From positions 1-35,694 of the forward strand of contig JAFXZO010000097.1 in assembly GCA_017541205.1 (NCBI GenBank): a stretch of 35,694 nt of DNA, given 5' to 3'. The stretch's first letter is position 1, and each line of letters opens with the position of its first letter. Made by a program: the position numbers and the translations under genes. The DNA is from Clostridia bacterium (GTDB lineage Bacteria > Bacillota > Clostridia > Christensenellales > Aristaeellaceae). The notes under the pieces were generated by a model. It ran no database searches, had not been told where the DNA came from, and was given only the letters and a program-made list of their open reading frames with translations. Below are positions 8,602 to 35,694 of the stretch, piece after piece.

Positions 8602-8609
8602 ACGGGGAT

Positions 8610-9349: not shown

Positions 9350-9352
9350 GCC

Positions 9353-10374: not shown

Positions 10375-10414
10375 GATTCCCCACCTCCGGCAAAAAAACG
10401 CCAAAAAATTGCTC

Positions 10415-10438: not shown

Positions 10439-10454
10439 TGCCGTGGCATGTCAA
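10426..10454 (-). promoter_or_regulatory. Promoter of azlC-azlD-SRAP
   Basis: On the minus strand TTGACA (10449-10454) and TATAAT (10426-10431) with a 17-base spacer, a consensus promoter about 50 bases before the azlC start. Confidence 0.85.
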
Positions 10455-10518
10455 TTCGGGAACGGGCCGACGGAGGCGAGCGGCTGTATTCCTTTCGCAT
10501 TTATTTGCGGAAAGGACA

Positions 10519-10569
10519 AAGAACCAAATCTTGTCGCCAAACGGTATATTTTCAGCCTCTTTGGTTCTT
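10519..10569. promoter_or_regulatory. Long-spaced inverted repeat upstream of uxaC
   Basis: AAGAACCAAA (10519-10528) and TTTGGTTCTT (10560-10569) are perfect complements, with centres 41 bp apart (about four helical turns). The right arm touches the -35 box of the uxa promoter. This could be a pair of half-sites for a hexuronate-responsive repressor, perhaps acting by DNA looping. Confidence 0.45.
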
Positions 10570-10596
10570 GACTTTCTATTTTATACGTCTTATACT
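10568..10596 (+). promoter_or_regulatory. Promoter of the uxaC-uxaB-uxaA operon
   Basis: TTGACT (10568-10573) and TATACT (10591-10596) with a 17-base spacer, about 34 bases before the uxaC start. Confidence 0.8.
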
Positions 10597-10629
10597 TGAA
10601 ACTGGAAGAAACGAGGAGGTTGGTTTGTT

Positions 10630-20183: not shown

Positions 20184-21080
20184 ATGAGAAAAAAGCTCAT
20201 TTGTCTATTCATGGTTTTCGCGCTGTGCGCCTCTTTCGGCATTGTCCATGCCGAAGAACAGTTTCGCGTCAGCTATCTGGGACCGGAGGGCACCTACACG
20301 CAGGAAGCCGCGCAGTTCTTTTTTTCTGACGGAGGGATGCTGATCCCAAGGGAGACGGTGAGCCTCGCCGTTTCAGACGTGCTGTCCGGCGAAGCAGATT
20401 ACGCCGTCATTCCGCAGGAAAACACCGTGGGCGGGCCTGTCGTCAACTACCTGGATGCGCTCATCTCCGCAGAGGGCGTCTATGTGGTGGGCGAGGTCGT
20501 GATCCCCATCAGTCAAACGCTGATGGGCGTGCCCGGCGCTGCGCTGGAGGATATCCGCACCGTCTGTTCCCACGCTCAGGGGCTTACCCAAAGCGCGCAG
20601 TGGCGTGAGATCTATTTACCGAATGCCTCGGCCATGGAAATGTCCAGCACGGCCGCGGCGGCAAGCTACGTCGCGCAGCGGCAGGACAAAACCATCGCCG
20701 CCGTTGCGGCTCCCGGCGCTTCCGCCCTGTATGGCCTGGAGGTGCTGGCGGAGAATGTGCAGATCACAGACGCAAACAAAACGCGGTTCTATGTGCTCTC
20801 CGGGGCCCCGCTGCGTGAGGAAGGGCTGACAAGGGCAGTGTTCGTCGTTACCTGCGCGGGCAGCGAGATCGACGACGTCATCGTCGCAACGCATGATGCG
20901 GGGCTGGAACTGGTAGCCCTACATGACCGCCCTGAGGGGAGCGTCCTGGGAACATATCACTTTGTGATGGAGTGCGAGAACCCGGATGGCGTGAACGACG
21001 CTCAGATCGCCGCTGTGAGCAGCACGGATGGCGTGCGCTTCCTCGGGTGCTTCAACCCAATGGAGAAAAATGCGGAATGA
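20184..21080 (+). CDS. Exported prephenate dehydratase-like protein (PDT plus ACT-like domain)
   Basis: 298 residues. Residues 1-23 form a Sec signal peptide (MRKKL, hydrophobic core, VHA before EE). The mature part matches prephenate dehydratase: YLGPEGTYTQEAA (30-43), YAVIPQENTVGGPV (73-86), SHAQGLTQ (129-136, equivalent to HPQALAQC) and the catalytic NKTRFYVL with Thr200-Arg201-Phe202. An ACT-like region (about 213-290) follows, with HDRP in place of the regulatory ESRP. Cytosolic PheA makes phenylpyruvate from prephenate; here the export signal and altered ESRP suggest a ligand-binding or extracellular role, and activity is uncertain. It lies 26 bases after the regulator in the same operon and ends before a terminator. 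Confidence 0.85.
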   Translation: MRKKLICLFMVFALCASFGIVHAEEQFRVSYLGPEGTYTQEAAQFFFSDGGMLIPRETVSLAVSDVLSGEADYAVIPQENTVGGPVVNYLDALISAEGVYVVGEVVIPISQTLMGVPGAALEDIRTVCSHAQGLTQSAQWREIYLPNASAMEMSSTAAAASYVAQRQDKTIAAVAAPGASALYGLEVLAENVQITDANKTRFYVLSGAPLREEGLTRAVFVVTCAGSEIDDVIVATHDAGLELVALHDRPEGSVLGTYHFVMECENPDGVNDAQIAAVSSTDGVRFLGCFNPMEKNAE

Positions 21081-21190: not shown

Positions 21191-21224
21191 CTTTGGACAT
21201 CCTTTGGACAGCGCTTGCTACAAT
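21191..21224 (+). promoter_or_regulatory. Direct-repeat activator site and promoter before the radical SAM gene
   Basis: CTTTGGACA occurs at 21191-21199 and again at 21202-21210, an exact 11-bp period. A TACAAT -10 box (21219-21224) follows after 8 bases. No -35 box stands at the normal distance, and the second repeat lies about where it should be. This is the layout of promoters activated by winged-helix regulators of the PhoB or SARP kind, and the response regulator at 19357 is the natural candidate. Confidence 0.6.
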
Positions 21225-21263
21225 ATGATTAACAAATTTGCTCGTGCGGCGAAAGGAGGGAGC

Positions 21264-22727
21264 ATGTACTACCGATTGAAGGAGCCCTGGGCGTTTCGCG
21301 GCTGGAAAAAGCTGCCCTTTGCCGTCTGCGCCATGGCGGGCGAAAAGAAGCATGAGGAACCGTTCCTGATGGAAAAGGCGCCTTTTCTGGAGCTGCTGTG
21401 CTGCAACGGCGAGGAAGACGTGGACGTTTCCTCCTTCAGCGAAGCGGGACGGAAGATCATCGAAGAAATGACGGAGCACGGCATCATGGAGCAGTCGGAA
21501 AGCCCCATGCGGCCTCTTTCTTCCTTTCAGCGTTACCGTGTCTATCCAAGCAGGCGCTTAAAATCCGTGCATTGGAGCATCACGGGGAAATGCAATTTCA
21601 ACTGCCGCCATTGCCTGGTTTCCGCGCCAAGCGCCCATCATCCCCAGCTGCCGCTTGCCGATTGCCTTCATATTGTGGAGGAAATCGCAAAATGCGGAGT
21701 CAAGCGAGTGGACGTGACCGGAGGCGAACCGCTGGTCCGAAAGGATTTTGAAGAGATCGTAAAGGCGCTTTCCGGCTATGGCATCGACATCGGCGTGCTG
21801 TTCACCAACGCCTCCCTGCTGACAAAGGACACGCTGGATATGCTGGAAAAGCATCGCCAGCATCCCACCTTCCAGCTCAGCTTTGACGGCCTGGGGCATC
21901 ACGACTGGCTGCGGGGCGTGCCGGGGGCGGAAAAGCAGGCGGACGATGCGCTCCGTTTGCTCAAAGAACGCGGGTATACCGTAAACGCCGCCATGTGCAT
22001 CCACCGGGAAAACCGAGACAGCCTGCGGGCCACGGCGAATTACCTGGCGGGATTGAACGTGCAAAACCTGCGAGTCAACGCGCCGCAAAGCCTGGGCCTG
22101 TGGAAGCAGTACGCGGATCAGTATGCGCTGACGGAGGACGAGGTTTGGGCGGCGTACAGAGATTTTATCCCGCGTTACTTTGAGGACGGCATGCCCATCG
22201 GGGTGGAGCTGGACGGCTATTTTCGCTGCGAAAAAGGAAAAACCGATTATAAAGTCGCCTATGTGCATAACGCGAAGGAAGGCGCGGACTGGACGAAGCA
22301 TCCCTACTGCGAAAGCGTGCGCTATCACGTATATATCGGGCCGGAAGGGCGGCTGGCCCCCTGTATGGGCTTTTCCAACACGGCGCTGAAGGAGAAGTTC
22401 CCCAGCGTCCTGGAGCATCCCCTGGGCGAATTGACCCTGGACAGCTTCTACCACGACGTGGTGGGAACCAGGGTCAGCGATCTGCTGGCGAAAAACCCGG
22501 CCTGTGCTACCTGCGAATACCTGCCCAAATGCTGCGGCGGTTGCATGGTGGAGGGCATCACCGACGAGGGCGACTATCTGGTGCCGGACGGGCGGTGCTG
22601 CTATTTCCACAGGCACATCGGCGAGGAAGCAGTGCGGGCCGTGGCGGACGCGGCGATTCAAAAATACTGCGGCGACAGCCGTTTGTATGATATCAGCAAC
22701 GAGAAGAGAAAGGGGCCATCACCATGA
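21264..22727 (+). CDS. Radical SAM/SPASM peptide-modifying enzyme
   Basis: 487 residues. About 1-90 may be a PqqD-like recognition domain for the leader peptide. The radical SAM motif CNFNC pattern is GKCNFNCRHC with Cys110, Cys114 and Cys117 (CxxxCxxC) for the 4Fe-4S/SAM cluster, followed by VTGGEPLVRKDF. The C-terminal SPASM region has PCMGFSNT, then CATCEYLPKCCGGC and a late RCCYF, enough cysteines for auxiliary clusters. Enzymes of this kind install thioether or carbon-carbon links in RiPP precursors. Start: ATG 21264 follows AAAGGAGGG; the longer frame from 21204 covers the promoter. The last four bases overlap precursor A1 (ATGA), so enzyme and substrate are translationally coupled. The exact linkage cannot be told from sequence. 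Confidence 0.93.
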   Translation: MYYRLKEPWAFRGWKKLPFAVCAMAGEKKHEEPFLMEKAPFLELLCCNGEEDVDVSSFSEAGRKIIEEMTEHGIMEQSESPMRPLSSFQRYRVYPSRRLKSVHWSITGKCNFNCRHCLVSAPSAHHPQLPLADCLHIVEEIAKCGVKRVDVTGGEPLVRKDFEEIVKALSGYGIDIGVLFTNASLLTKDTLDMLEKHRQHPTFQLSFDGLGHHDWLRGVPGAEKQADDALRLLKERGYTVNAAMCIHRENRDSLRATANYLAGLNVQNLRVNAPQSLGLWKQYADQYALTEDEVWAAYRDFIPRYFEDGMPIGVELDGYFRCEKGKTDYKVAYVHNAKEGADWTKHPYCESVRYHVYIGPEGRLAPCMGFSNTALKEKFPSVLEHPLGELTLDSFYHDVVGTRVSDLLAKNPACATCEYLPKCCGGCMVEGITDEGDYLVPDGRCCYFHRHIGEEAVRAVADAAIQKYCGDSRLYDISNEKRKGPSP

Positions 22728-23164
22728 CGGAAAACGTAAGGAATTTTGAAAAAGACCTGCGGGGGAGTAAGGAACTGCAGAAAAAGCTGGTTGAAGAACT
22801 GAAAAAGATCACGGAGGAAAAGAGCGCGGAAGGCGACGCGGAGGCCATGGCCAAGGCCGCCCAGGCCCTGGGCTATGATTTCACCGTGGCGGACATGGAA
22901 AAAGCCAACGCCGAAGCCCAGGAGCTGGACGTGGAAGAAATGGAGCAGGCCGCCGGCGGCGTGTGCTTTGCGGATTACGACTGCTACACCGCCTGGAACC
23001 ACGATACGCCGGATCAGAAAGGAACCGCCTGCTTCAGCGATTATGAGTGCATGACCGCCTATCATGAAAGCTTCGCTGTCGACGCCCTGTATGGCACGTT
23101 TGTGAAACCTGTGGAAGATATTTACGATGCTTTGAAAAATCTGATCGATTCATTCAAGTCGTAA
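22724..23164 (+). CDS. Nif11-leader RiPP precursor A1
   Basis: 146 residues. Residues 1-79 form a Nif11-type leader: charged helices, the hallmark LGYDFTVADMEKA and a final ELDVEEMEQAAGG, where a C39 peptidase should cut after Gly79. The 67-residue core begins VCFADYDCYTAWNHD and repeats itself after 22 residues as CFSDYECMTAYHE. All four cysteines (81, 87, 103, 109) are in these two C-x5-C units, and the leader has none. A helical tail (VEDIYDALKNLIDSF) with no Cys ends it. Start: ATG 22724 overlaps the radical SAM stop, with AAAGGGG ahead. It is the likely substrate of the radical SAM enzyme and the C39 transporter at 31569. Confidence 0.88.
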   Translation: MTENVRNFEKDLRGSKELQKKLVEELKKITEEKSAEGDAEAMAKAAQALGYDFTVADMEKANAEAQELDVEEMEQAAGGVCFADYDCYTAWNHDTPDQKGTACFSDYECMTAYHESFAVDALYGTFVKPVEDIYDALKNLIDSFKS

Positions 23165-23203
23165 CCGCCTGAAGCACACATTAATCGAAAGGAGCGCTTT
23201 CTC

Positions 23204-23674
23204 ATGACGGAAAACGTGAGGAAATTTGAAAAGGCGCTGCGGGAGAGCAAGGAGATGCAGGCCAGACTGGCGCAGGAACTGAAAAAGATCGCCGAGGAAA
23301 AGAGCGCGTTAAACGACACGGAGGCCATGGCCGCGGCCGCCCGGGCCCTGGGCTATGATTTCACCGTGGCGGACATGGAGAAAGCCAACGCCGAAGCCCA
23401 GGAATTAGACCCTGAAGAAATGGAGCTGGCCGCCGGGGGCTGGTGCTTTGCGGATTACGACTGTTACACCGCCTGGAACCACGATACCCCCGATCAGCAA
23501 GGGTCCGCCTGTTTCAGCGATTATGAATGTATCACTCTGTTCCATGATTCCAAAGTGGATGATCTCATCGATTATGTGGATGATTTCCTCAATGATGATA
23601 AAACGAAGAAAATGAAAAAAGATGGGAAAGGGCTGATTGATTACATCATCAAAAAGCTGCCCTTTGATATTTGA
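23204..23674 (+). CDS. Nif11-leader RiPP precursor A2
   Basis: 156 residues, a tandem paralogue of A1. The leader (1-79) is nearly the same length and ends ELDPEEMELAAGG. The core begins WCFADYDCYTAWNHD, and the second unit is CFSDYECITLFHD; Cys positions 81, 87, 103 and 109 equal those of A1. After the second unit the proteins diverge completely: A2 has a longer acidic then basic tail (DDLIDYVDDFLNDDKTKKM...YIIKKL). Start: ATG 23204 follows AAAGGAG. The duplication shows which parts are under constraint: leader and Cys units, not the tail. Confidence 0.88.
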   Translation: MTENVRKFEKALRESKEMQARLAQELKKIAEEKSALNDTEAMAAAARALGYDFTVADMEKANAEAQELDPEEMELAAGGWCFADYDCYTAWNHDTPDQQGSACFSDYECITLFHDSKVDDLIDYVDDFLNDDKTKKMKKDGKGLIDYIIKKLPFDI

Positions 23675-23712
23675 TGAAAACCCCATTGATTCTGCGAAAG
23701 GACAAGGACTGC

Positions 23713-24000
23713 ATGCAAATGACAAACAGCAAAAAACAAATCGAGCTTGAGCCGGAAGAAATGGCATCCTTGAGCGGCGGTCAAGCGCTGGGGATCTACC
23801 GGCCGGGCTTTCGCCATAAAAAAGAGTCGCTGCGTTTTTTCAAAACCTGCGTCGGCAACGAAGCCTATACCAAGGCCATGAACAGCGAAGCGGGACGCAC
23901 CCACCACTACGTCGTGGCAAGAACGCTGCTGAATCAAACGGATTGGGAAAAATTCGTGTGGATCGAAGAACACGGCTCTTTGGACGGTTTTCCGGGATAA
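23713..24000 (+). CDS. Short double-glycine-leader peptide A3
   Basis: 95 residues from ATG 23713 (a second ATG at 23719 is equally possible; each has a purine-rich site ten bases ahead). The first 23 residues end IELEPEEMASLSGG, a short GG leader like the end of the A1/A2 leaders but without the Nif11 helices. The presumed mature part is 72 residues, basic then mixed (QALGIYRPGFRHKKESL...), with a single Cys. No CFxDY unit is present, so the radical SAM enzyme may not act on it. It may be an unmodified bacteriocin-like peptide, or an accessory or immunity-related peptide exported by the same C39 transporter. No family recognised. Confidence 0.7.
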   Translation: MQMTNSKKQIELEPEEMASLSGGQALGIYRPGFRHKKESLRFFKTCVGNEAYTKAMNSEAGRTHHYVVARTLLNQTDWEKFVWIEEHGSLDGFPG

Positions 24001-24074
24001 GGATGATCCGTTGCATCAAAAAATATTGAATTCATCATGACCTTACGGCTTTGAAAAAACAGGAGGATAGAAAA

Positions 24075-24719
24075 ATGACGAAAAGATTGATTTCCCTGGC
24101 GCTCGTTGCCATACTGGCGGCAATGCTCATTCCCTCTCTGGCTTTCGCCGATTACTATGGTACTCAGTGGGTCTATACAGATAACGGCAAAAGCCTGAAC
24201 GTACGCAGCGCCCCGAACACCGGGGACAATATCATCGGTTCTCTGGCCTATGCCGCGGAGGTAACGGTTGTCAAGATGTACGATAACGGATGGGCGCAGA
24301 TCCTGTGGGAGCAGAACCAGTACGGCGAATTCGGCGTGGCCTATGTGCAAAGGCGGTTCCTGGTGAATCATAAGCCCACCTCCAAGCCCACCCCCGTGCA
24401 GCCATCGGCCACCACCGCCCCGGCTTCCGGCGGCTCCGCCGACAGCACGAATTACACGAAAGTATTTTCCGACATGAATTCGGAATTCAGGAGCGCCAAA
24501 AAGGTGGACGCCCCCTACACCGTGGTGGCCCGTCCCTCCCGCGCATCCGGCTGGGTGAATCTGCGCTGGGCCCCCAGCACCGAGGCGGAACGCATCGCCA
24601 CCTGCAGCCAAGGTAAGGAACTCACCGTGCTGGCGGAACTGAAAAACTGGTATCAGGTGCAGGACCCCGTCACCGGCATGATCGGCTTCATCAGCCGTCA
24701 GTATGTGACGAAGAAGTGA
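24075..24719 (+). CDS. Exported protein with two bacterial SH3 domains
   Basis: 214 residues. A Sec signal peptide (1-24, cleavage after LAFA) precedes a first SH3_3-type domain (about 30-95: KSLNVRSAPNTGDNIIGSLAYAAEVTVVKM...WAQI) and a Pro/Thr-rich linker (KPTSKPTPVQPSATTAPAS). A second SH3-like domain (about 150-212: GWVNLRWAPSTEAERIATCSQGKELTVLAEL..WYQV) follows. Such domains bind peptidoglycan or wall polymers. The start ATG 24075 follows CAGGAGG. Its second SH3 domain and flanks (RPSRASGWVNLRWAPS) closely match those of the protein at 28090 (RASRASGWVNFRVGPG). The role in the RiPP cluster is unknown; wall-bound immunity or assembly are possibilities. Confidence 0.85.
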   Translation: MTKRLISLALVAILAAMLIPSLAFADYYGTQWVYTDNGKSLNVRSAPNTGDNIIGSLAYAAEVTVVKMYDNGWAQILWEQNQYGEFGVAYVQRRFLVNHKPTSKPTPVQPSATTAPASGGSADSTNYTKVFSDMNSEFRSAKKVDAPYTVVARPSRASGWVNLRWAPSTEAERIATCSQGKELTVLAELKNWYQVQDPVTGMIGFISRQYVTKK

Positions 24720-24776
24720 GCCTGACGGCCATTGAATCAATGATAGTGAATAAATCATAAAGAGAGGAAGACGACC

Positions 24777-26051
24777 ATGAAAAAAGCGCTTGCGATCCTG
24801 CTTTGCCTGGCGATGCTGCTGGGCTGCGCCGCCGCACAGGCAGAAGCTCCCGAAAAACTGTATCTGGCCACCGTGAATATGAACGGTGCGTTCAATCTGC
24901 AGTGCTCCCTGCCGGAAGGCTATGAATTTCAAGAAATCGAATCCACCGACGCCACCTATATCGCCGTTTTCAAGATGGATGAAAACCGCCCCATGCTGAC
25001 CCTGTCCATCGCCTACAACGAGCTGTATTCTGATGTGACGCGGATGAACGACCTGGATGCGGAGGCCCTGGCCCTGATCGAAGATTCCTTCCGGCAAGAG
25101 GACGAAGTGGACATCAGCTATACGGAAACGGCCTACGGGACCAAAGTGATGATGGTCAAGGAAATCAAGGACACCGTGGACTATATGGAATTTTACTCTG
25201 TCTTCCTGGGCTATGAAATCGAAGTTGTGGCGGTCAGCCTGAACAGCGAAGAGGGCCTTACGGACGACCAGATCAAAATGGTCATCGATTTCCTGAGCAA
25301 TCTGGACTTTGTGGAAGCTGAAAACGACGTCTATCCTCAGCCCGAAGGCGGAAAAAAGTTTGAAAGCGATTGGGCTATTGTCGGCGGGCTGGCGGAAATC
25401 ATCTACGAAGAAGAAGGCTACCGGGTCACGCTGACCATCAATAACCAGGACGGCACAGGCGCGCTTTGGCAGTATTCCTGCTACTACGTGGAAGACACGG
25501 ATTCCCTTCTTTCCGTTTCCTCCAGCCGAACCAACTTCACCATTAATCCGAATAACGGCGAAACAGTATACGGTGACGTCGCATACGAAGGGATCGACGA
25601 AGAAGGCATGGAAACAACATTCAGCATTGACGATCACGGCTGCCTCATCTGGAAGGACGGCCATGACGACGCTGGCGCGGGCCTGGAATTTGTCAATATC
25701 GGTCGATTCGATGGTGTATGGCGGAATGAGGAGGAAGAAGTGGAGGTCGAGTTCATGTGGAACGGCCTGACCGAAGATGAAATGTTCTACACCGTATATA
25801 TCACCCGCGGCAAGACCGATGGGGATCATTATACGAATTTCCTGATGAACGGCACCTATGATCCTGCCACCGGCAGGCTGAGTGCGTATGGCACCTGCCT
25901 GCTGTTCACCAGGAACGCCGCCGGAGAATATGATTCCAGCGAAGACAGTGAGACCTACGACGCATTCTTCTCTTTGATGGAAGACGGCAGGCTGCTCTTT
26001 GAAACGGCCAACGGCATCGAGTTGGAATACGACCTCATGGGGCATCAATGA
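24777..26051 (+). CDS. Exported (probable lipoprotein) modular protein
   Basis: 424 residues, no named family recognised. The N-terminus MKKALAILLCLAMLLGC contains a lipobox-like LLGC (Cys17), though AQA-EA could also be cut by signal peptidase I. Module B (about 28-183: FNLQCSLPEGYEFQ, TRMNDLDAEAL, SYTETAYGTKV, DDQIKMVIDFLSNLDFVE) recurs at the C-terminus of the 28090 protein. Module C (about 195-310: IIYEEEGYRVTLTIN, LWQYSCYYVEDTDSLLSVS, FSIDDHGCLIWKDGHDDAGAGLEFV) recurs in the 26097 protein. A further beta-rich repeat-like part follows (310-424). Very acidic overall. The start ATG 24777 follows AGAGAGGAAG. The function is unknown; the outer surface is the likely place of action. Confidence 0.82.
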   Translation: MKKALAILLCLAMLLGCAAAQAEAPEKLYLATVNMNGAFNLQCSLPEGYEFQEIESTDATYIAVFKMDENRPMLTLSIAYNELYSDVTRMNDLDAEALALIEDSFRQEDEVDISYTETAYGTKVMMVKEIKDTVDYMEFYSVFLGYEIEVVAVSLNSEEGLTDDQIKMVIDFLSNLDFVEAENDVYPQPEGGKKFESDWAIVGGLAEIIYEEEGYRVTLTINNQDGTGALWQYSCYYVEDTDSLLSVSSSRTNFTINPNNGETVYGDVAYEGIDEEGMETTFSIDDHGCLIWKDGHDDAGAGLEFVNIGRFDGVWRNEEEEVEVEFMWNGLTEDEMFYTVYITRGKTDGDHYTNFLMNGTYDPATGRLSAYGTCLLFTRNAAGEYDSSEDSETYDAFFSLMEDGRLLFETANGIELEYDLMGHQ

Positions 26052-26096
26052 GCATAGAAGTGTATCCATCCAGTCACATCAAAGGAGACAGAAACC

Positions 26097-28031
26097 ATGA
26101 GCATCATGAAAAAGATTTTTGCAATGATCCTGATTGCGGCGCTGTGCCTGAGCGGGACGGTGCTGGCGGAGGAAGCGCCCGCCGTCACTGCTGCGGACTA
26201 TCTGGGAGAATGGGTGGATCTGGACGGCGCCTGCAACATTGATATTACGGAACATACCGATGGAGAGACGATTGACGGCTATGTCGCCAACGTCGAGATG
26301 CCCATCATTGAAAAAGATGGACTGTGTTACGTCGTTTGGTCTTACGCCTGTGTCTGGGATGACGAGACGCAGACCATGAAGAGCACCGCCCGTTTCGTAG
26401 GCAAGGGTGATTACGATCCGGACAGCGAAGAGGAAATCACGGATTCCAGTCTGGACTACACCGCCGCGACATTCCGCTTTGACGAAGAAGGGCGGCTTGC
26501 CTGGAGCGACGAAAACGAAACCGCTGACGACGGGCTGCTCTTTGTGCGGCCCATCGGCTGGGGCGAGAGCGTGTACGCGAGCTTCCGGGGCGAGTGGGTG
26601 GAGTGTGAGACCCATTTCACCCAAATGACCATTGAAGAGAACCCTGTGGAAGGTTTGGACGTTGAGATCGTATCCCCGCTGACCCACGGCGCGTATATCT
26701 TCAAGAGCACGGTTCAGTACGACGCGGATGAGCGCTGCTTTACCTACGACAAGGGCAAATTCTGGGACGTGCCCATCACCGAAGAAGAGAATCCCGAGCT
26801 GGGCGAAGAGAAGATCGCCGGAACCAGCGGCATATTCGCCTTCGTCTGGGAAGAGGATCGCCTGGTCCTGACCTGGACGGACGACAGCCAGCCGGACAGG
26901 GAAGTGCGGTTTGAGCGTGCGGAAACCGACGCCGAGCCTGCCGGAGCTGCGGCCTTTGAGGGCGTTTGGCAGTGCGACCGGGCAACCATCGCCATGTATT
27001 GGGAAGAAGAGGGCTTCAAGGTGCTGATCACCTGGGGAAGCAGCGCCTGGGAGCACTCGGAATGGGAATACAGCTGCTATTACCACGAAGAAAACAATAC
27101 GGTGGTATCCGTGCCCTTCGGCATCCGCACGGAATATGTGTACGGCGATAACGGCGAACTCGTATCCGCCACCGAAGCGTATAACGACGGGGAAGCCGTC
27201 TTTTCTCTGGACGAGGAAGGAAAGCTGATCTGGCTGGATGAGAAGGAAAACGCGGGCGACGGGATGCGGTTTGAGAAAATCCCCGAAGAGCCTGCCGATC
27301 TTACCTTCGCCACCATCGGGGACGCGATGAATGCGGAAGGCTATACCGGTATTGCTGGCGGCGATGATGAACACTATGTGGCGGTGGTTGAACTGGACGG
27401 CGCGTATCTCCGCGTGGTGGCCAAGGTGGACGACGAAGCCCGCAGGCTGGGCGACGCCACCCTGGATTATGTGGATGCCGACACGCTTGAAGCCGCGTTT
27501 GCGGCATATAACGCCTATATCGAAACGCTGCCCATCGCCTATGAAGAGGAGATCACCGCCCAGCCCCTGACCCAGGAGGAATTGGACGCGCTGGCGGGCA
27601 AAACCCTGCTGGAATTGGAGGAAGCGGGCTATGAATCCAGCTCTTCCCATATGGGAGAAGACGACGCAGCCATTTATACCGTAAGCTATGGCCTGTTTGA
27701 ATATGATCTGCTGCTGAACGGAACCTATACCGAATACATGGAGCACAATGACAGCGGCTATATCGGCGATCTGACGGTCAAGAGCGCCGCCTTGGCCGGC
27801 ATTTCCCGTAATGCGGTGGAGATGCGCTATCACGCGGACGGCACTTACGATGAAGAAAACGATTCTTGGGCTGAATTCAATGGAATCATGGAGATGATCA
27901 CCAACGCCTTGTCCAGCGAAAACCCGGAAGAAGCTATTCAAGCGCTGATCGAAGCCATGCCTGAACAGGCTGAAGAGATCCAGGCGTTCGCGGAAATCAT
28001 TTCCGCCATGACCGAACAGAGCGAAGAATGA
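26097..28031 (+). CDS. Large exported acidic repeat-module protein
   Basis: 644 residues with a signal peptide (1-24, cleavage after TVLA). It consists of beta-rich, lipocalin-like modules. The first (about 35-150) has GYVANVEMPI, YVVWSYACVWDDE and FRFDEEGRLAWSDENETADDGLLFV. A middle one follows (160-280). A module C copy (about 285-405) carries MYWEEEGFKVLITW, WEYSCYYHEENNTVVSVP and FSLDEEGKLIWLDEKENAGDGMRFE. The C-terminal region (410-644) has two unrelated-looking parts and a Glu-rich helical end. No catalytic motif seen. Start: ATG 26097 is eight bases after AAAGGAGA; ATG 26106 gives MKKIF. It is in line with the neighbours, with 45-60 base gaps, so probably co-transcribed. Confidence 0.8.
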   Translation: MSIMKKIFAMILIAALCLSGTVLAEEAPAVTAADYLGEWVDLDGACNIDITEHTDGETIDGYVANVEMPIIEKDGLCYVVWSYACVWDDETQTMKSTARFVGKGDYDPDSEEEITDSSLDYTAATFRFDEEGRLAWSDENETADDGLLFVRPIGWGESVYASFRGEWVECETHFTQMTIEENPVEGLDVEIVSPLTHGAYIFKSTVQYDADERCFTYDKGKFWDVPITEEENPELGEEKIAGTSGIFAFVWEEDRLVLTWTDDSQPDREVRFERAETDAEPAGAAAFEGVWQCDRATIAMYWEEEGFKVLITWGSSAWEHSEWEYSCYYHEENNTVVSVPFGIRTEYVYGDNGELVSATEAYNDGEAVFSLDEEGKLIWLDEKENAGDGMRFEKIPEEPADLTFATIGDAMNAEGYTGIAGGDDEHYVAVVELDGAYLRVVAKVDDEARRLGDATLDYVDADTLEAAFAAYNAYIETLPIAYEEEITAQPLTQEELDALAGKTLLELEEAGYESSSSHMGEDDAAIYTVSYGLFEYDLLLNGTYTEYMEHNDSGYIGDLTVKSAALAGISRNAVEMRYHADGTYDEENDSWAEFNGIMEMITNALSSENPEEAIQALIEAMPEQAEEIQAFAEIISAMTEQSEE

Positions 28032-28089
28032 TAGAAGCAGTATAAACAAACCGTATGCAAGCGGCAAATGAAAAAGGAGGAACAACCCC

Positions 28090-29241
28090 ATGAAAAAGCA
28101 AATCATCGCATTCCTGTTCGCGGCCGTTCTGCTGCTGACGGCCCTCCCTGCGGTATTGGCGGAGGAGGAAGGGCCGGAGGGCAAACCCATGACGATTGAG
28201 GAAATGATGGGACTCAATCCGGCTGAATGGCCCAAGACCATGTATGTATATACCGAAAACAGAGGCAAGCTGAACGTGCGCAGCGAGCCCAAATCCGGCG
28301 ACAACGTGATCGATCAGCTGGAATACGGCACGGAAGTGATCGTAGAGAGCCCGGTGATCATCAATCCTGAATGGAGCTGCATTCGGAGTAAAAAAGCCAA
28401 GGATGGCATCGCCTACGTCATGACGCGCTATCTCAAAAACAGCAGACCCAGCGATGCGGATAAAGTCGCCGAAGAAAAAGCCAACAAGGAAGAATTGAAC
28501 CGACAGATCAAAAGCGAACGTGCGTTGGAGCAGCCCCTTCTGCTTGCTGTTCGCGCTTCACGCGCTTCCGGCTGGGTCAACTTCCGCGTAGGCCCCGGCG
28601 TGGCGGCGGACCGCATCGCCTCCCTGCCGGACGGCCGGGAACTGAAAGCTATCGGTGAAACGGATAAGTGGTATCAGGCCATCGATTCCGAAACCGGCAA
28701 GACCGGCTATATCAGCAAGAATTACGTCACCGTGCTGGGCGCCGTGAAGGAAGAGCCTGCCAAGGAACAGATGGGCAAGTTGATCGTGAACGGTGAATTC
28801 GCCCTGCAATGCCAGCTGCCCGAAGGCTATTCTATGCAGCTCATCAACACCCTGGGCACCAAGATCAGCGCGTTCATCACCAGTGAAGATCCGGAAAAGC
28901 CCATTTTGCAGCTTTCCATTGCCTTTGACGAACTTTTCGCTGACGTGGATCGCATGAACGACCTGTCCGAGGAAGCGCTCAGGGGGCTGGAGGAGAGCTT
29001 CGCCGAAATGAACGAAGTGGAAATTTCCTATACGGAAACCGCCTACGGCACCAAGCTGCTCATCGCCCGGGAAGTGGGCGACGATACGGATTTCGTGGAT
29101 ATCCTGTCCGTGTATAAGGGCTATTCCATCGAATTCGTCATGACCCCCAATCCCGAAGCCAAGGATCAGACGCTCACCGACGCGCAGATCCAGATGTGCA
29201 TCGATTTCCTGAGCGAAGTGGATTTCGTGGAAGTGAAATAA
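28090..29241 (+). CDS. Exported SH3-SH3-module B protein
   Basis: 383 residues: signal peptide (1-24), SH3 domain (about 55-117: GKLNVRSEPKSGDNVIDQLEYGTEVIV), charged linker helix (118-152), second SH3 (about 155-215: GWVNFRVGPGVAADRIASLPDGRELKAI..WYQAI) and module B (about 228-383: FALQCQLPEGYSMQ, DRMNDLSEEAL, SYTETAYGTKL, DAQIQMCIDFLSEVDFVE). The first part is a paralogue of the 24075 protein and the last part of module B of the 24777 protein, so it looks like a fusion of domains found in its neighbours. The start ATG 28090 follows AAAGGAGGA. The SH3 domains suggest wall attachment; the purpose of module B is unknown. Confidence 0.83.
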   Translation: MKKQIIAFLFAAVLLLTALPAVLAEEEGPEGKPMTIEEMMGLNPAEWPKTMYVYTENRGKLNVRSEPKSGDNVIDQLEYGTEVIVESPVIINPEWSCIRSKKAKDGIAYVMTRYLKNSRPSDADKVAEEKANKEELNRQIKSERALEQPLLLAVRASRASGWVNFRVGPGVAADRIASLPDGRELKAIGETDKWYQAIDSETGKTGYISKNYVTVLGAVKEEPAKEQMGKLIVNGEFALQCQLPEGYSMQLINTLGTKISAFITSEDPEKPILQLSIAFDELFADVDRMNDLSEEALRGLEESFAEMNEVEISYTETAYGTKLLIAREVGDDTDFVDILSVYKGYSIEFVMTPNPEAKDQTLTDAQIQMCIDFLSEVDFVEVK

Positions 29242-29250
29242 CCACGTTTC

Positions 29251-29290
29251 AATATGCTTGCAGTGCCGAAAAGCGCGCTGCAAGCATATT
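29251..29290. terminator. Strong hairpin between exported-protein genes
   Basis: AATATGCTTGCAG (29251-29263) is perfectly complementary to CTGCAAGCATATT (29278-29290). No long T-run follows (GTTCATC), so it may be a weak terminator, an mRNA-stabilising stem at the 3' end of the upstream gene, or a site that sets the level of the M15 peptidase gene. Confidence 0.55.
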
Positions 29291-29329
29291 GTTCATCAGA
29301 CGGACAAGGCGGAGAGGAGATGTGTTCCG

Positions 29330-30034
29330 GTGAAAAAATTGATCCCCATCCTGCTGGCGGCTTCGCTGCTTTGCATCGTATGCTGTTCCATCGCCGAAGA
29401 AACGGCGCAGCCCGAATCGGATTCCGGCTTCTGGATCTCCGAGATCACGGACGAGATCTTTGAAAGGATTCAGGGAAAATCCTTTAAGGACGATTGCACG
29501 CTGCCCCGGGAAGACCTAAGGTATCTGCACGTGCTCCATGTGGGGCTGGACGGAGAAACCCACGAGGGCGAGATGATCGTCAATTACCACATCGCCGAGG
29601 ATGTACTGGATATCCTCCGGCAGCTTTATGAAGCAAAGTATCCCATTGAAAAGATCCGCTTGGTGGATGAATATGACGCGGACGACGAGCTTTCCATGGA
29701 GGACAACAACTCCTCCTCCTTCAATTTCCGCTTCATTTCCCACACCACCCGCGTGTCCAAACACGGCCTGGGCCTGGCGGTGGATATCAACACCCTGTAC
29801 AACCCCTACACCAAGATCGTGGACGGCGTGCGCATCGTGGAACCCGTCACCGGCGAGCCTTACCTGGATCGGGACGCGGATTTCCCCTGTAAAATCGATC
29901 ATGAAGACTTGTGCTATAAGCTCTTTACCGAGCACGGCTTCGAGTGGGGCGGCGACTGGGAGGACCGGAAGGACTACCAGCATTTTGAGATTCCCACCGA
30001 CGTGATCTCGGAATGGTATCCCGACAATCAATAA
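29330..30034 (+). CDS. Exported M15-family D,D-/L,D-peptidase (VanY/CwlK-like)
   Basis: 234 residues from GTG 29330, nine bases after GGAGAGGAGA. Signal peptide (about 1-22, SIA before EE). The catalytic domain has the M15 zinc motif HGLGLAVD (His145, Asp152) and DYQHFE (His218, with Asp215 as candidate catalytic acid). Family members cut D-Ala or stem-peptide bonds of peptidoglycan outside the membrane. The frame is open upstream through the hairpin, but no SD stands there. In the cluster it could remodel the wall to let the exported peptides through, confer immunity, or be a passenger. Confidence 0.85.
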   Translation: MKKLIPILLAASLLCIVCCSIAEETAQPESDSGFWISEITDEIFERIQGKSFKDDCTLPREDLRYLHVLHVGLDGETHEGEMIVNYHIAEDVLDILRQLYEAKYPIEKIRLVDEYDADDELSMEDNNSSSFNFRFISHTTRVSKHGLGLAVDINTLYNPYTKIVDGVRIVEPVTGEPYLDRDADFPCKIDHEDLCYKLFTEHGFEWGGDWEDRKDYQHFEIPTDVISEWYPDNQ

Positions 30035-30056
30035 TCAATTCTGAGGAGGCAATACC

Positions 30057-30698
30057 ATGAAAAAACTGATTTCTTTCCTTTGTGCGCTGCTGCTGGTCTG
30101 CTGTGCTTCGGCCGCTGTCGCCGAGCCATATGTGTCTAACCTTTACGCGCCGAAAACGCCGGAAACGCTCAAAACGCTGTTGGGCGGCAAAAGTTTTTAC
30201 GTCCGCGTCAACGGCATAGAAGTAAGCGGCGAGGACGAGGACGCCCGTTTCAGGATCACGCTCACCGTCTGTGAAAGGGATCGGTTCGATGCGGCGGTGA
30301 TCGAGAATCTGGCGGTGCATGATATCCTCCAGTTCGGAAACGGCGACGCCGCGATGGTCCTGGAAGTGATCCCCGATGAATCCGGCGTCACGGTCAAGGG
30401 CGGCGAAAATGTCTATTCCTTCTATAAGGAAGAAGACGGAAGCTATACCGTCACCACGGATGGGGAGTATCCCTTCTGGACGGAAGTTTTCTCTGTCACC
30501 GTTCCGCTGGAAAAAGACGTCCGCTTCCTGGACTGGAGCGATCCGGAAAACCAGGGTGAGCCTGTGCAGCTGGGATTTGACGCTCTCCGCGATCTGTTGC
30601 AGGGGGATACAAACTTTTCCCCGTACAATACGTGCGTCACCTTTGATGAGAACGGAAAGATGGTTGAATTCCTTTACAATTATTCTCCCTGGAATTGA
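30057..30698 (+). CDS. Exported protein of unknown function
   Basis: 213 residues with a signal peptide (1-22, cleavage after AAVA). The rest is beta-rich, with acidic patches, and no named domain recognised (ARFRITLTVCERDRFDAA, DAAMVLEVIPDESGVTV, FDALRDLLQGDTN). A lipobox-like LLVCC is also present in the signal region, so lipidation is possible. The start ATG 30057 follows TGAGGAGG, 23 bases after the M15 peptidase gene, so they are co-transcribed. Confidence 0.78.
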   Translation: MKKLISFLCALLLVCCASAAVAEPYVSNLYAPKTPETLKTLLGGKSFYVRVNGIEVSGEDEDARFRITLTVCERDRFDAAVIENLAVHDILQFGNGDAAMVLEVIPDESGVTVKGGENVYSFYKEEDGSYTVTTDGEYPFWTEVFSVTVPLEKDVRFLDWSDPENQGEPVQLGFDALRDLLQGDTNFSPYNTCVTFDENGKMVEFLYNYSPWN

Positions 30699-30753
30699 GA
30701 TATGCTGAACATAGACATCATGGATACCGTTCTGCGAAAGGAGGAACATAACC

Positions 30754-31014
30754 GTGAGTGACAAGCAGGAACTGAACATGGATGATATGGGCCAGGCAGC
30801 CGGAGGCTGGGAGTTTCACGCCGAGGGGAAACACCTCACATAGCTCAACGGGTATGATATCAAATGCCCGTATTGCGGGAACGCCAGCGCGGATGTCGTG
30901 AAGAAGAGCGCAGCGAGTCCCAGCGAAGTATTATTCAAATGCGAAAACTGCCAGAAGACTTTTTTTCTCCGCTGGGACAGGCTCTACAACAAGGTGATCG
31001 TCGTTAAGCGTTGA
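30754..31014 (+). pseudogene. Double-glycine-leader peptide A4 with in-frame TAG
   Basis: GTG 30754 follows AAAGGAGG by ten bases. The frame gives MSDKQELNMDDMGQAAGG, whose ELNMDDMGQAAGG matches the ends of the A1/A2 leaders. WEFHAEGKHLT then leads to TAG at 30841-30843. The same frame continues without another stop for 56 codons to TGA 31012-31014 and encodes a zinc-ribbon-like part (CPYCG ... CENC, ending in KVIVVKR). If the TAG is a mutation or error, this was an 86-residue peptide with a zinc ribbon core. If real, the product is an 11-residue peptide after leader removal. It lies just before the transport genes. Confidence 0.6.
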
Positions 31015-31082
31015 CTGATCTCCCTGGTGATCGATATTTCAGACGAGATTCAGTATCACTTGCGGAAGGAAAGAAATCTGTT

Positions 31083-31553
31083 ATGGAAAAAAGTCTTTTC
31101 CGAAAAAAGAGCATGGAACGCATTTCCTCCCCGGAGGAACTGCACGACTATATGCGCGTCACCAGCCCCCGGCTCTGGATGATCCTGGGCGCCATTGTGG
31201 CGCTGCTGGCGGGGTTCATCGTGTACGCCTCCACCGCCACCATGGAAAACACCATGACTATCCAGGTGCAGATATCCCAATACGGACTCCAGGAAAACGG
31301 CACCGGAGAGAGGGAATACATAACGGGTATCCAAGCCTATCTGCCCGGTTCCATGAAGGATCAGGTACAAACTGGCATGATGGTGCGAATTGGGAAAGAG
31401 GAGACGACGGTCAACTACATCGGTGTGCGTGAGGATGGCATGATCTTTTTAACGATCGATCCTATCGAGGATTACCTCCCACTCCCGGAAGGCGTTTACG
31501 ACGCGGAGCTGGTGCTTGAATCCACCACGCCCATCAGCTTCCTTTGGAATTGA
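31083..31553 (+). CDS. Short HlyD-like NHLM secretion protein
   Basis: 156 residues. The N-terminus (LFRKKSMERISSPEELHDYMRVTSPRLW) is the hallmark of the HlyD-family partner of NHLM-type peptide exporters. One membrane helix (about 31-50) follows, then an outer beta-rich domain. The usual long coiled-coil/lipoyl hairpin of adaptor proteins is missing, which fits a Gram-positive cell with no outer membrane. ATG 31083 gives the family N-terminus; the longer frame from 31011 overlaps peptide A4. It lies 15 bases before the C39 transporter gene. Confidence 0.82.
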   Translation: MEKSLFRKKSMERISSPEELHDYMRVTSPRLWMILGAIVALLAGFIVYASTATMENTMTIQVQISQYGLQENGTGEREYITGIQAYLPGSMKDQVQTGMMVRIGKEETTVNYIGVREDGMIFLTIDPIEDYLPLPEGVYDAELVLESTTPISFLWN

Positions 31554-31568
31554 TGAAAGTAGCAAAAC

Positions 31569-33749
31569 ATGGCTGAAAAGAAAGTGAAGCAGCCCGTCAA
31601 AAGCGGCGTGGCGAAGGTGCCGGTGATCATGCAGATGGAAGCGCTGGAGTGCGGCGCGGCCAGCCTTGCCATGGTGCTGGCATATTATCAAAAATGGATC
31701 CCCCTGGAGCAGGTGCGCCTGGACTGCGGCGTAAGCCGGGACGGCTCCAACATGAAAAACGTGTATCTGGCGGCCCAGCATTACGCGCTGGAGGTGCACG
31801 GCTACCGCATGGAAGTCGAAACCCTGAAAAAGGACGTGGCCTTCCCCTGCATCATCCATTGGAATTTCAATCATTTCGTGGTGCTGGACGGCTTCAAGGC
31901 CAACAAGGCGGTCATTAACGACCCGGCCCGGGGCGTGGTGCAGATCCCCATGGAGCAGTTTGACGAAGCCTTTACAGGGCTGGTGCTGACCTTCAGGCCA
32001 GGCGAAGGCTTTTCTCCCTCCGGCAAGCGTAAGAGTACCCTGGCCTTCGCCCGGAAACGGCTCAAGGGCGCATCTCCCGCCGTGGCCTTCATCGTGCTGA
32101 CCTCCATGATCTCCTATCTGTTCGGCGTGATCAATCCCGTCATGTCCCGCATTTTTTTTGACCGGCTGCTGACCGGCCAGGCTCCGGATTGGCTGTATCC
32201 CTTCATTACGGCCATGATTCTGCTTTCGGCGTTTCAGCTGATCGTGCAGTGGGCCCAGGCCGTGTACAGCCTCAAAATCAACGGTAAAATGGCCATCGAG
32301 GGCAACGCCTCTTTCCTTTGGAAGGTGCTGCGGCTGCCCATGGAGTTTTTCTCCCAGCGCATGACCGGCGATATTTTGCAGCGGCAGGGCACCAACGCAA
32401 CGATTGCGGGCACGCTGGTGAATACCGTTGCCCCGCTGGCCCTGAATACGGTGATGATGGTGTTTTATCTGGTGGTCATGCTGCGGTACAGCGCGGTGAT
32501 GACGCTGATCGGCATTGCGTCCCTGGCGCTGAACCTGGCCGTGGCCCGGTATCTGTCCAATAAACGAGTGAATCTGACCCGGGTGCAGATGCGGGACGCG
32601 GGCAAGCTGGCCTCCGCCACGCTGGCGGGCATCAGCATGACGGAAACCATCAAATCCTCCGGGGCGGAGGGCGGCTTCTTCCGCAAATGGAGCGGCTATC
32701 AGGCATCGGTGAACACCCAAATGGTGAAGTTTGCCACCCTGAACGCCCGGATCGGCCTGATCCCGCAGTTCATCAGTACCGCCAGCAATTATCTGGTGCT
32801 GTTCCTGGGTATAAATCTTGCCATGACCGGCAGCTTCACCGTGGGTATGATCGTCACCTTCCAGGGACTGCTTTCCTCCTTTATGGGCCCAGCCATGACG
32901 TTGGTGAGCGCAGGCCAGACCATCCAGGAAATGCGCACGGAAATGGAACGGGTGGAGGACGTGATGGAAAGCCCTGACGACCCTGCTCTGCAATACGGCG
33001 CGGACTGTGAAGGGGAGAATTACGCCAAGCTCAAAGGCGAGGTGGAATTAAAGCACGTCACCTTCGGTTATTCGAGGCTCGGCAATCCCACGGTTTCCGA
33101 TTTTTCCATGCACATAAAGCCCGGCAGCCGCATTGCCATTGTTGGGGCCAGCGGCTGCGGAAAATCCACCGTCAGCAAGCTGATCACGGGCCTCTATCAG
33201 CCCTGGGAGGGTGAAATCCTCTTTGATGGAAAGCCCATTTCCCAAATTCCCCGGAATATTTTTACAGGCAGCGTTGCTATGGTGGATCAGGACATCGTGC
33301 TCTTTGAGGACACCATCGCCAATAATATCCGCATGTGGGATGAATCCATCGCCGATTTTGAGGTGATCCTGGCGGCCCGGGATGCACAAATTCATGAGGA
33401 TATTTTGCAGCGTCCCGGCGGGTATCAGGGAAAGCTCATCGAGAACGGCAGGGATTTATCCGGCGGTCAGCGGCAGCGGCTGGAAATCGCCCGGGTGCTG
33501 GCCCAGGACCCCTCCGTCATCATCCTGGACGAGGCTACCAGCGCCCTGGACGCCAAGACGGAATATGAATTGGTGAAAGCCGTCAAAGATCGGGGTATCT
33601 CCTGCATCGTGGTGGCCCATCGGCTTTCCACCATCCGGGACTGCGACGAAATCATCGTGCTGGACAAGGGCAGAATCGTGGAGCGCGGCACCCATGAGGA
33701 GCTATATGCCAAGGGCGGCGCTTACGCAGACCTTGTTACAAATGAATAG
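31569..33749 (+). CDS. C39 peptidase-containing ABC transporter (NHLM type)
   Basis: 726 residues, membrane-bound exporter that cuts GG leaders and exports the peptide. The peptidase C39 domain (about 15-145) has Gln22 and catalytic Cys28 ([16 protein letters not shown]), His102 ([11 protein letters not shown]) and Asp118 (INDPARG). A six-span ABC membrane domain (about 165-455) follows. The ATPase domain has GASGCGKST (about 526), Q-loop region, [23 protein letters not shown] and the H-loop VAHRLST. The layout fits the NHLM bacteriocin-system transporter. A homodimer, or a heterodimer with the product of the next gene, is possible. All active-site residues are intact, so it should be functional. 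Confidence 0.95.
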
Positions 33750-33758
33750 AAAGGACGA

Positions 33759-33847
33759 ACCTCTGACGACCGCCAGTGGCGGAAACATCGTCAGAGGTGA
33801 GATCAATCGAAACAAGCGATCTCCGCAGTGCGGAGTCGCGCCGATTG
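33759..33847 (+). promoter_or_regulatory. Two nested hairpins between the transporter genes
   Basis: Hairpin 1: ACCTCTGACGA (33759-33769) with TCGTCAGAGGT (33788-33798), enclosing CCGCC-AGT-GGCGG. Hairpin 2: CAATCG (33804-33809) with CGATTG (33842-33847), enclosing GCGA, one bulged T, and CTCCGC-AGT-GCGGAG-TCGC. Both have an AGT apical loop. There is no T-run, so it is not an ordinary terminator. It fills most of the 118-base gap and may stabilise, process or pause the mRNA. Confidence 0.65.
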
Positions 33848-33867
33848 AGATTGCGGAGGTCTTCTGT

Positions 33868-35694
33868 ATGGGTTGGTTTACGGAACAGATCAAACAGCGC
33901 ACAGAAAACGACCAGAACGTATTGGAAGACTCCTTCTTCCGCATGGCAAGCGTGGTCATGGACAAATGGGACGCAGAACGCCTTGCGGACAGCCGCCTGA
34001 TCGCCCGGGAGGCCATGGACGACATTCTGAAATTCTATCATCATAAGCCCGTCGATATCCCGGAAAGCATCCAGGACGTAAAGGACCAGCTGGAATATGT
34101 GCTGCGGCGCACGGGACTGATGATCCGGGACGTGGAACTGGAGGACGGCTGGCAAAACGACGCTTACGGCCCCATGCTGGGTTATATGAAGGAAACAGGC
34201 GCTGCGGTGGCCCTGCTGCCGGGGACGGTCTATGGGTATTATTACAAGGACCCGGCTACGGGAAAGAAAACGAGGATCACCCGAAAAAACGCGAAGCTGT
34301 TTTCCCGGGACGCTCTGTGCTTCTATCAGCCCCTGCCCATGAAAAAGTTAGGCATTCCCGATCTTCTCCTGTACATGAAAAACAGCGTCACCCGCGGCGA
34401 TCTGCTTTTGATCGTACTGGCGACGCTGGCCGCGACTTTGGTTTGGATGATCGAGCCCCGGGTATACAGCCTGGTGACGGGCAAGATATTGCAAAACCAC
34501 AGCATGAACCTGATGGCGGGGCTTGGGGTGTTTCTGCTGACCAGCGCCTTTGCCGCCCAGCTGATCTCTTTGGTGCGGAGCCTTTTGATGCAGCGGATCA
34601 ACACCAAAACCTCCCAGGCGGTGGAAGCGTCGGTGATGATGCGCATATTGTCCCTGCCAGTGAGCTTCTTTAGGCGATATTCCTCCGGCGAGTTGCAAAG
34701 CCGGGCGGGCAGCGTCAATTCCCTGTGCGGCATGATCCTGAATAACATCTTGTCCATTGGCCTTGGCAGCCTCATGTCCCTGCTCTATGTGGCGCAGATT
34801 TTCAGCTTTGCTCCGGCGCTGGTGTGGCCGTCGCTGCTGATCATACTGGCCACGGTGGCCATGAGCCTGGCGGCTTCCTTTGCGCAGATCGGCATCGCCA
34901 GAAAGCGGATGAAGCTGAGCGCGGAGGAAAACGGCATGAGCTATGCCATCCTGAACGGCGTCCAGAAAATCCGCCTCTCCGGGTCGGAAAAGCGGGTGTT
35001 CGCCCGGTGGGGGCGGCTATACGCTCAAGGCGCGAGACTGGACTATAACCCGCCCATGTTCCTCAAAATCAATGGGGTCATCACCGCGGCGATTTCCCTG
35101 ATCGGCACCATCGTGCTGTATTATTTGGCGGTTCAGACAGGCGTGGGAGTCAGCCAGTATTACGCCTTCACGGCGGCCTACGGGCGGGTCATGGGCGCGT
35201 TTTCCGCACTGGCCGGCATCGCCATTTCCGTAGCCTCCATCCGGCCGGTGCTGGAAATGGCGGAACCCATCCTGAAAGCGGAGCCCGAGGTCAGCGCCGA
35301 TAAGCTGCCCGTGGACCGGGTGACCGGGCGTATCGAAATGAGCCACGTTTCCTTCCGCTACGAGGAAAACACGCCCTATGTGCTGAACGATCTGTCCCTG
35401 AGTATAAAGGCCGGGGAATACGTCGCCATCGTGGGGCGTACCGGCTGCGGCAAATCCACCCTGGTGCGGCTGCTGCTGGGCTTTGAAAAGCCGGAAAAAG
35501 GCGCTGTTTTCTACGATCAAAACGACCTGAACAATATCGATCCGCGCTCCCTTCGCAGGCACATCGGCGTGGTGATCCAGAACGGGCAGCTGTTCCAGGG
35601 CGACATTTTCTCCAATATCACCATCTCCGCGCCCGACCTGACGCGGGACGAAGCCTGGGCCGCGGCGGAAACGGCGGGCATCGCCCAGGATATA
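33868..35694 (+). CDS. Second NHLM-type ABC transporter, C-terminus beyond the window
   Basis: 609 codons visible, no stop before the window end. The N-terminus [30 protein letters not shown] is that of the NHLM ATP-binding partner protein. The first 165 residues form a soluble domain with no peptidase motif. A six-span membrane domain (about 170-460) follows, then an ATPase domain with GRTGCGKST (about residues 525-533) and the Q-loop VIQNGQLF. Signature and Walker B lie outside. Start: ATG 33868 follows GCGGAGGT by seven bases; the frame is open upstream to ATG 33742, but that part encodes the two hairpins. It probably pairs with the C39 transporter or handles a second export step. Confidence 0.93.

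Follow-up and report, generated by a model that had tools for sequence, protein, structure and literature searches.

A Nif11/NHLM-type radical SAM peptide operon from a Clostridia bacterium with a repeated Cys-x3-aromatic core unit as candidate cross-linking site

Among ribosomally synthesized and post-translationally modified peptides (RiPPs), the closest described counterparts of the system reported here are the Nif11/NHLP precursors with their NHLM transporters (TIGR03798, TIGR03796, TIGR03797). A cluster of Nif11 precursors, radical S-adenosylmethionine (SAM) proteins and a peptidase transporter is also known from the actinobacterium Eggerthella lenta; the paper concerned (PMC4289311) pointed out as early as 2014 that anaerobes have radical SAM proteins encoded next to Nif11 precursors. 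Our locus lies on contig JAFXZO010000097.1 of a gut-dwelling Clostridia bacterium (Christensenellales, Aristaeellaceae; assembly GCA_017541205.1), whose 3.0-Mb genome is in 121 contigs; the entire 35694-bp contig was analysed and is called the window. Positions 21264-35694 form a single operon-like run on the forward strand, from a radical SAM maturase through a second ABC transporter, and leader family, GG site, C39-ABC transporter and second ABC transporter are like those of the Nif11/NHLP systems. Domain searches (PF04055, PF07862, TIGR03796), alignments and synteny bear out the first-pass annotation, which had recognised a RiPP cluster of the Nif11/NHLM type, equipped with a radical SAM enzyme and with its genes in one direction. 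In contrast to the described systems, the HlyD partner is shortened to ~160 aa, the maturase stays below the cut-off of each NCBIfam model among the 25 listed of 65 matched, and the core motif has no described match in the literature searched. We regard it as fairly probable that this radical SAM RiPP operon of Nif11/NHLM kind represents a new family, whose enzyme would cross-link each Cys-x3-aromatic unit. No description of the core motif or of the enzyme family was recognised in the open-access literature searched, with subscription papers outside; leader and transporter families are already known, and the motif and its enzyme pairing may be new as far as searched.

With respect to chemistry, the ranthipeptides (freyrasin/PapB with CX3D; NxxcA) likewise depend on radical SAM enzymes. 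PapB forms links from sulfur to the beta carbon of Asp in its CX3D motif, with Cys and target four residues apart (PMC9413430) and several units per core, and a Cys-Asn link at another spacing, Cys23 to Asn20, is also known (PMC8326336). In the window, the target position is aromatic and the thioether is inferred from sequence; moreover, the SCIFF precursor (TIGR03973), given as the class rule for ranthipeptides in PMC13289728, has no match to either precursor at E 0.1. The triceptides (three-residue cyclophanes) share an aromatic residue followed by a conserved i+2 residue, which in the window is Cys and part of a flanking Cys pair. The maturases SuiB (streptide) and SkfB (sactipeptide) are similar in combining an N-terminal domain with radical SAM and SPASM domains, and their solved structures align over most of our model, yet identity is only 16-20% and the substrates differ.

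The two precursors follow the maturase in tandem. A1 (22724..23164, +) consists of a 79-aa Nif11 leader ending in GG and a 67-aa core, and A2 (23204..23674, +) of a 79-aa leader, again ending in GG, and a 77-aa core. Both exceed the PF07862 cut-off of 23.8 bits (A1 24.1, A2 24.5) and are the sole matches to this model in the genome at E 0.001, in agreement with the earlier claim of at least two substrates; with TIGR03798 (cut-off 32.3), A2 scores above at 34.4 bits and A1 below at 28.1. The leaders end in AAGG, the predicted cleavage site, and the cores open with a Cys unit. Two identical units are found in both cores, CFADYDC (22964..22984 in A1, 23444..23464 in A2) and CFSDYEC (23030..23050 and 23510..23530; all +), followed by distinct C-terminal tails. 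A1 had no match in phage records at E 1e-3.

For the wider motif sample, a hidden Markov model (HMM) was trained on the leaders of 12 precursors and run on all gathered loci, without using the core in selection; a strict leader pattern, which gave 7 cores only, had been superseded by a looser pattern and then by this leader-only HMM. Its 203 matches comprise 141 repeats of kept cores, 8 dropped matches (7 without GG/GA near the leader end, 1 by length) and 54 distinct cores. Among the dropped matches, one is strong (locus L086, with two motifs and no GG/GA site) and six are leader-only pieces without motif. The distinct cores split into 28 with E <= 1.2e-16 and 26 with E >= 7.2e-10. C-x3-[YWFH]-x-C is present in 28/28 strong cores and at least twice in 27/28; among the weak cores it occurs in 5/26, all from genome G1190 with an enzyme 36% identical to ours, and 14/26 bear a different CxC...G pattern. 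Removal of cores at least 70% alike left a non-redundant set of 23 cores with 115 Cys, 108 of which sit in Cx5C pairs. Position 5 is Y, W, H or F in 53 of 55 such pairs (40 Y, 8 W, 4 H, 1 F; the remaining two are D and E). The background frequency of these four residues is 22%, shuffled cores average 1.7, and none of 10000 shuffles reaches 53. An earlier count on 16 cores chosen for at least one motif had given 37/38. The unit consensus is C-hydrophobic-x-[D]-[Y/W]-x-C, in which the second Cys is conserved as strongly as the first, and the ratio of nonsynonymous to synonymous substitution rates (dN/dS) over the A2 unit region is 0.02-0.03.

The motif also follows the enzyme. In a tree of 20 enzymes, the window falls into an 11-row clade (clade 1, support 100/99), and motif precursors lie at the locus of 10/11 clade-1 enzymes. 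Of the nine rows outside this clade, seven have other cores nearby, namely glycine-rich CxC cores in L046 and L029 (together with another L029 core), zinc-ribbon-like cores in L048, L049 and L031, and CWFDDRC in the second system of L020; no core was identified for L047 and for the second enzyme of L024. Beyond the tree, the cores at L128 and L136 (36-38% enzymes) contain a single motif, or the motif next to units whose position 5 is D, N or H. L125 (37% enzyme) has cores without the motif, and for the remoter loci L129-L132 and L135 a pattern search found no precursor. Motif and enzyme clade go together in these data, though not exclusively, which links an orphan radical SAM enzyme family with a precisely defined substrate sequence, present in repeats, in gut bacteria belonging to two phyla.

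Besides, the relatives contain further core types. In L136 (G1190), at 6912-10664 and beside a 36% enzyme, C-x3-aromatic-x-C is followed by a second Cx5C, whose fifth residue is D, N or H, and then by a further Cx5C, so that aromatic and acidic positions occur within one peptide. Nif11 precursors with repeated CxC...GGGG units, about 8 of them in L046, are found in L046 (6868-11925), L029 (9594-9998) and L053; they represent another orphan core type, and those of L046 and L029 adjoin related (35-38%) radical SAM enzymes. In L008 and L028 (G055), the clade-1 enzyme is split across two frames and accompanied by a stop-bearing precursor match, either a decayed copy or an assembly error.

The maturase itself (21264..22727, +; 487 aa) matches PF04055 with 72.6 bits (cut-off 29.5), and its stop overlaps the A1 start by 4 bp. 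The CX3CX2C motif and seven SPASM cysteines are invariant in 20/20 aligned enzymes, while the Pfam SPASM model remains below its cut-off (17.3 vs 21.5 bits). The AlphaFold2 (AF2) model has a mean confidence (pLDDT) of 90.7 and lies nearest to radical SAM peptide-modifying enzymes including SuiB, SkfB, anSME and ChlB in a structure search, in which the presence or absence of other families proves no membership. The alignments span model residues 3-448 for SuiB and 8-432 for SkfB, and the modelled N-terminal domain appears to resemble that of SuiB; a general Pfam scan gave no match of the RiPP recognition element (RRE) type, no RRE model having been run separately. SkfB is also the top PDB sequence match (2.5e-14). 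The best NCBIfam model is ScmE of the SynChlorMet cassette (TIGR04250), yet with only 109.4 bits against a cut-off of 400 (profile 3-346/358), and the second is the StsB sactipeptide maturase model with 91 bits against 625. To this extent, the view that the system matches no characterised product still holds. No enzyme match was found in plasmid records at E 1e-20. A lanthipeptide or azole cluster was set aside, as the Pfam scan, which covered 19 window proteins and not every frame, showed no enzyme of that kind.

In the maturation route that we consider likely, the N-terminal domain of the radical SAM enzyme would hold the leader, modification of each Cx5C unit would fall to the radical SAM core and cleavage after GG to the C39 domain of the transporter ABC1, and ABC1 and ABC2 together with the short HlyD protein would export the mature peptides alongside an unmodified GG peptide. 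The modification could be a ranthionine-like thioether from the first Cys to residue i+4, with the hydrogen taken from the beta carbon of that residue, which would be Y, W, H or F here and D, N or H in some cores of remoter enzymes. Each core would then carry two thioethers, or possibly four should a link from the second Cys to position 11 be formed as well. We see an about even chance that a Cys(i)-residue(i+4) thioether is indeed formed. It is favoured because position 5 alternates between Y, W, H and F (with Y and W both inside one precursor, L042), because D or N stands there in remoter members (CWSNDAC, CVVSDEC, CFASNEC), because two G957 cores, whose enzyme was not seen, retain Cx3Y without the second Cys (CLMSYYG, CIISYHG), and because the spacing is that of PapB. 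The interchange at position 5 also argues against a phenol-requiring chemistry. Links at aromatic beta carbons would add members to the known radical thioether acceptors, and the structure of the peptides may be an undescribed one, as no described match was found for the repeated cysteine-and-aromatic sequence. Their role would likely be antagonism or signalling in the gut.

Several points weigh against this picture. The equal conservation of the second Cys is unexplained by a single link from Cys to residue 5; it may reflect a second link to position 11 or a cyclophane between residue 5 and Cys7, and position 11 is aromatic or His in just 31/54 units. In A1, the unit region has a dN/dS of 0.33, which is not below that of the leader (0.14-0.16). 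The sample is not independent, because each of the 12 precursors behind the leader HMM has the motif and the loci were gathered by likeness to this system, and the E-value cut was set after the gap from 1.2e-16 to 7.2e-10 had been seen among kept cores, a gap into which the dropped leader-only pieces fall. For the eleventh clade-1 enzyme (L045, 45% identity), no precursor was seen within the 6 kb upstream, nor did the precursor HMM match anywhere in the genome. Conversely, the motif is not exclusive to clade 1, since L128 (38% enzyme) has one and five cores of L115/L136 (36% enzyme) hold one or two each. L026 possesses enzyme and precursor and no NHLM export gene in 9.5 kb downstream.

An extension of the thioether reading would account for the second Cys. 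In it, every Cx5C unit would carry two Cys-x3-aromatic thioethers in tandem, one from C1 to position 5 and one from C7 to position 11, each attached to the beta carbon of a Tyr, Trp, His or Phe, with a related branch acting on Asp, Asn or His, and thus one enzyme family spanning aromatic and acidic acceptors. If true, this would yield densely ringed peptides of an undescribed class, and we hold it only tentatively, as somewhat unlikely.

A three-residue cyclophane as in triceptides seems rather unlikely to us. Here, the aromatic ring at position 5 and the Cys7 beta carbon (i, i+2) would be joined by a C-C bond, leaving the thiols free or in a C1-C7 disulfide. The 53/55 aromatic or His residues at position 5 and the invariant Cys7 at i+2 fit well, and known three-residue cyclophane enzymes connect residues i and i+2, residue i being aromatic, also in motifs that contain Tyr or His (PMC11002830). 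However, the wider family with its remoter enzymes has D or N, residues without ring, at position 5, Cys1 is left unexplained, and no model of a three-residue cyclophane-forming enzyme (3-CyFE) was recognised among the 25 listed of 65 NCBIfam matches. To our knowledge, Cys is not a triceptide acceptor.

We attach a small probability to sactipeptide-like hairpins, in which the Cys thiols would bind alpha carbons of residues in the hydrophobic segment that follows Cys7, or at other sites. The ranking of SkfB and StsB among the enzyme's matches speaks for them, but the residues past Cys7 vary whereas position 5 within the Cys pair is nearly invariant, and a sactionine does not need an aromatic residue. 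The smallest chance goes to Cys pairs free of enzymatic cross-links, i.e., C1-C7 disulfides or a metal site with His at C7+5/+6 next to some other change such as epimerisation, a reading in line with His at position 13 in 27/51 and at position 12 in 14/54 units and with other GG peptides of the wider family that look like zinc ribbons. A spliceotide of the PlpX kind was rejected, because XYG occurs in only 3/28 cores, window A1 among them, and at unlike places.

Turning to export, the first-pass annotation had listed extra GG peptides, a short HlyD-like protein, an intact C39-ABC transporter and a second ABC transporter, and most of this list stands. One GG-leader peptide without the motif is intact (23713..24000, +; 72-73% identical to the copies in L018, L019 and L022, with dN/dS 0.14 against L018), but the other, GG2 (30754..31014, +), is broken by an in-frame stop at 30841-30843 according to three-frame translation. 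GG2 contains two CxxC pairs and has intact copies in L019 and L073. The HlyD-like protein (31083..31553, +) covers only the first 36 positions of TIGR03794 and stays below the cut-off (20.8 vs 156.2 bits). As short HlyD-like proteins stand directly upstream of ABC1 in six relatives (L019, L020, L023, L031, L127, L134), it is probably a conserved short form, and its interpretation as a HlyD remnant was set aside. The peptidase/permease/ATPase ABC1 (31569..33749, +) has PF03412 and exceeds the TIGR03796 cut-off (921.9 vs 853.3 bits). ABC2 (33868..35694, +) is present as annotated earlier, but is truncated by the contig end (TIGR03797 profile 21-571/686; 487.6 vs 709.4 bits); L073 and L080 have 735-aa open frames. 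A second NHLM ABC1, 61% identical, occurs elsewhere in the same genome (G000:C31:889-3054), and the PF07862 search gave no Nif11 match at that place. Numerous short GG-leader peptides that lack Cx5C units are grouped close to NHLM transporters in L048 (12193-14475) and L042 (13577-14532), which suggests that one exporter may serve many unmodified peptides.

The system is sparsely distributed. A pattern scan of an 84,980-species collection gave 26 candidate stretches at 17 loci, and in 13/17, two of them from one metagenome-assembled genome (MAG), the enzyme is at least 59% identical to that of the window. The records label these 13 loci as Clostridia, Lachnospiraceae or Coriobacteriia and, for the most part, as originating in the guts of ruminants; RUG in the genome labels we take to stand for rumen genomes. 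Counting the window's own genome, a precursor match occurs in 5/200 genomes of the family, and enzyme matches (E <= 1e-90, other clades included) in 6/396 genomes of the order and 2/391 of the class; in the class of the Coriobacteriaceae locus (G952), they occur in 12/296, its own genome counted. At the same time, L018 and L019, from different genera (g27, g48) and on 29- and 58-kb contigs, are 96.8% identical over 4.3 kb in a match that starts near the kinase start, with shorter pieces in addition. L073 and L080 are 98.5% identical over 6.0 kb, a match that alone is weak evidence of transfer, since the 8.8-kb L073 contig, like other small MAG contigs, is possibly misbinned. The sparse spread (5/200) and the near-identical stretches across genera suggest a mobile competitive or signalling trait.

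Between precursors and transporter lie exported proteins, of which we count six instead of the five announced before, with signal peptides judged by eye and no predictor. These are the SH3-repeat protein SH3a (24051..24719; PF08239), X1 (24777..26051), the repeat protein X2 (26097..28031), the SH3 and X1-like fusion SH3b (28090..29241; PF08239), an M15_4 peptidase-like protein of the D-Ala-D-Ala carboxypeptidase family (29258..30034; PF13539, 80.5 bits) and X3 (30057..30698), all on the + strand. X1 and X2 have no Pfam match at E 0.1, and X3 neither a Pfam nor an NCBIfam match at this threshold. X1, X2 and SH3b share modules, the N-domain of X1 being common to SH3b and its C-domain to X2; the AF2 model of X1 is poor (pLDDT 57.5). 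X2 matches in 16/60 genomes (own included), SH3b is 81% identical in L075, and the matched part of the M15_4 protein is 92-94% identical in L019/L073. The genes recur as a set in L018/L019 in different order and fusion state, consistent with the shuffling proposed earlier. Possibly, these proteins act at the cell wall.

The set looks like a separate two-component-linked module that has merged into the operon. In the clade-1 loci L020, L023, L127 and L134, which possess genes for enzyme, precursor and export, the exported set is absent between precursor and HlyD/ABC1. In contrast, L075 (same-genus genome G942) combines kinase, regulator and four exported proteins without a recognised RiPP gene in 20 kb; G942 (83% complete) has no enzyme match at E 1e-40 and one NHLM ABC1 relative (64%) elsewhere. 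Furthermore, the synonymous divergence (dS) of the window from L018/L019/L080 amounts to 0.50-0.62 for the maturase, A1, A2, ABC1 and ABC2, vs 0.84-1.29 for kinase, regulator, GG peptide, SH3a, X2, M15 and HlyD and 1.45 for X1. Against same-genus L074/L075, some exported genes are lower too (X1 0.63, SH3b 0.71). A mosaic of two merged modules as read from dS is suggestive only and is held with caution, because codon bias can lower dS and could mimic the difference. That the exported proteins are instead integral to peptide function, in immunity, wall anchoring or delivery, is possible though not what we favour: in the window and in L019 the set is flanked by precursors and transporter, in L018 it follows the precursors, its genes run in one direction, and the block pieces mentioned above are near-identical between genera, but the four clade-1 loci, L075 and the dS values all speak for the merged module.

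Upstream of the maturase, the described genes, all forward from 18077 to the contig end, begin with a two-component system that probably belongs to the RiPP unit. The histidine kinase (18077..19360, +; PF06580 and PF02518 above cut-off) and the response regulator (19357..20157, +; PF00072 and PF00486 above cut-off) have counterparts near the maturase in L018/L019 and adjoining the exported set in L075. Promoter and terminator scans were at chance level (11 vs 8.6 and 24 vs 19.9) and are uninformative on operon limits, and Rfam and tRNA scans gave zero matches. An exported prephenate-dehydratase-like protein (20184..21080, +; PF00800, 176.5 bits) has no counterpart between response regulator and maturase in L018/L019. 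It is odd in itself, as it joins a signal-peptide-like start to a prephenate-dehydratase domain, that is, a secreted version of a cytosolic enzyme fold.

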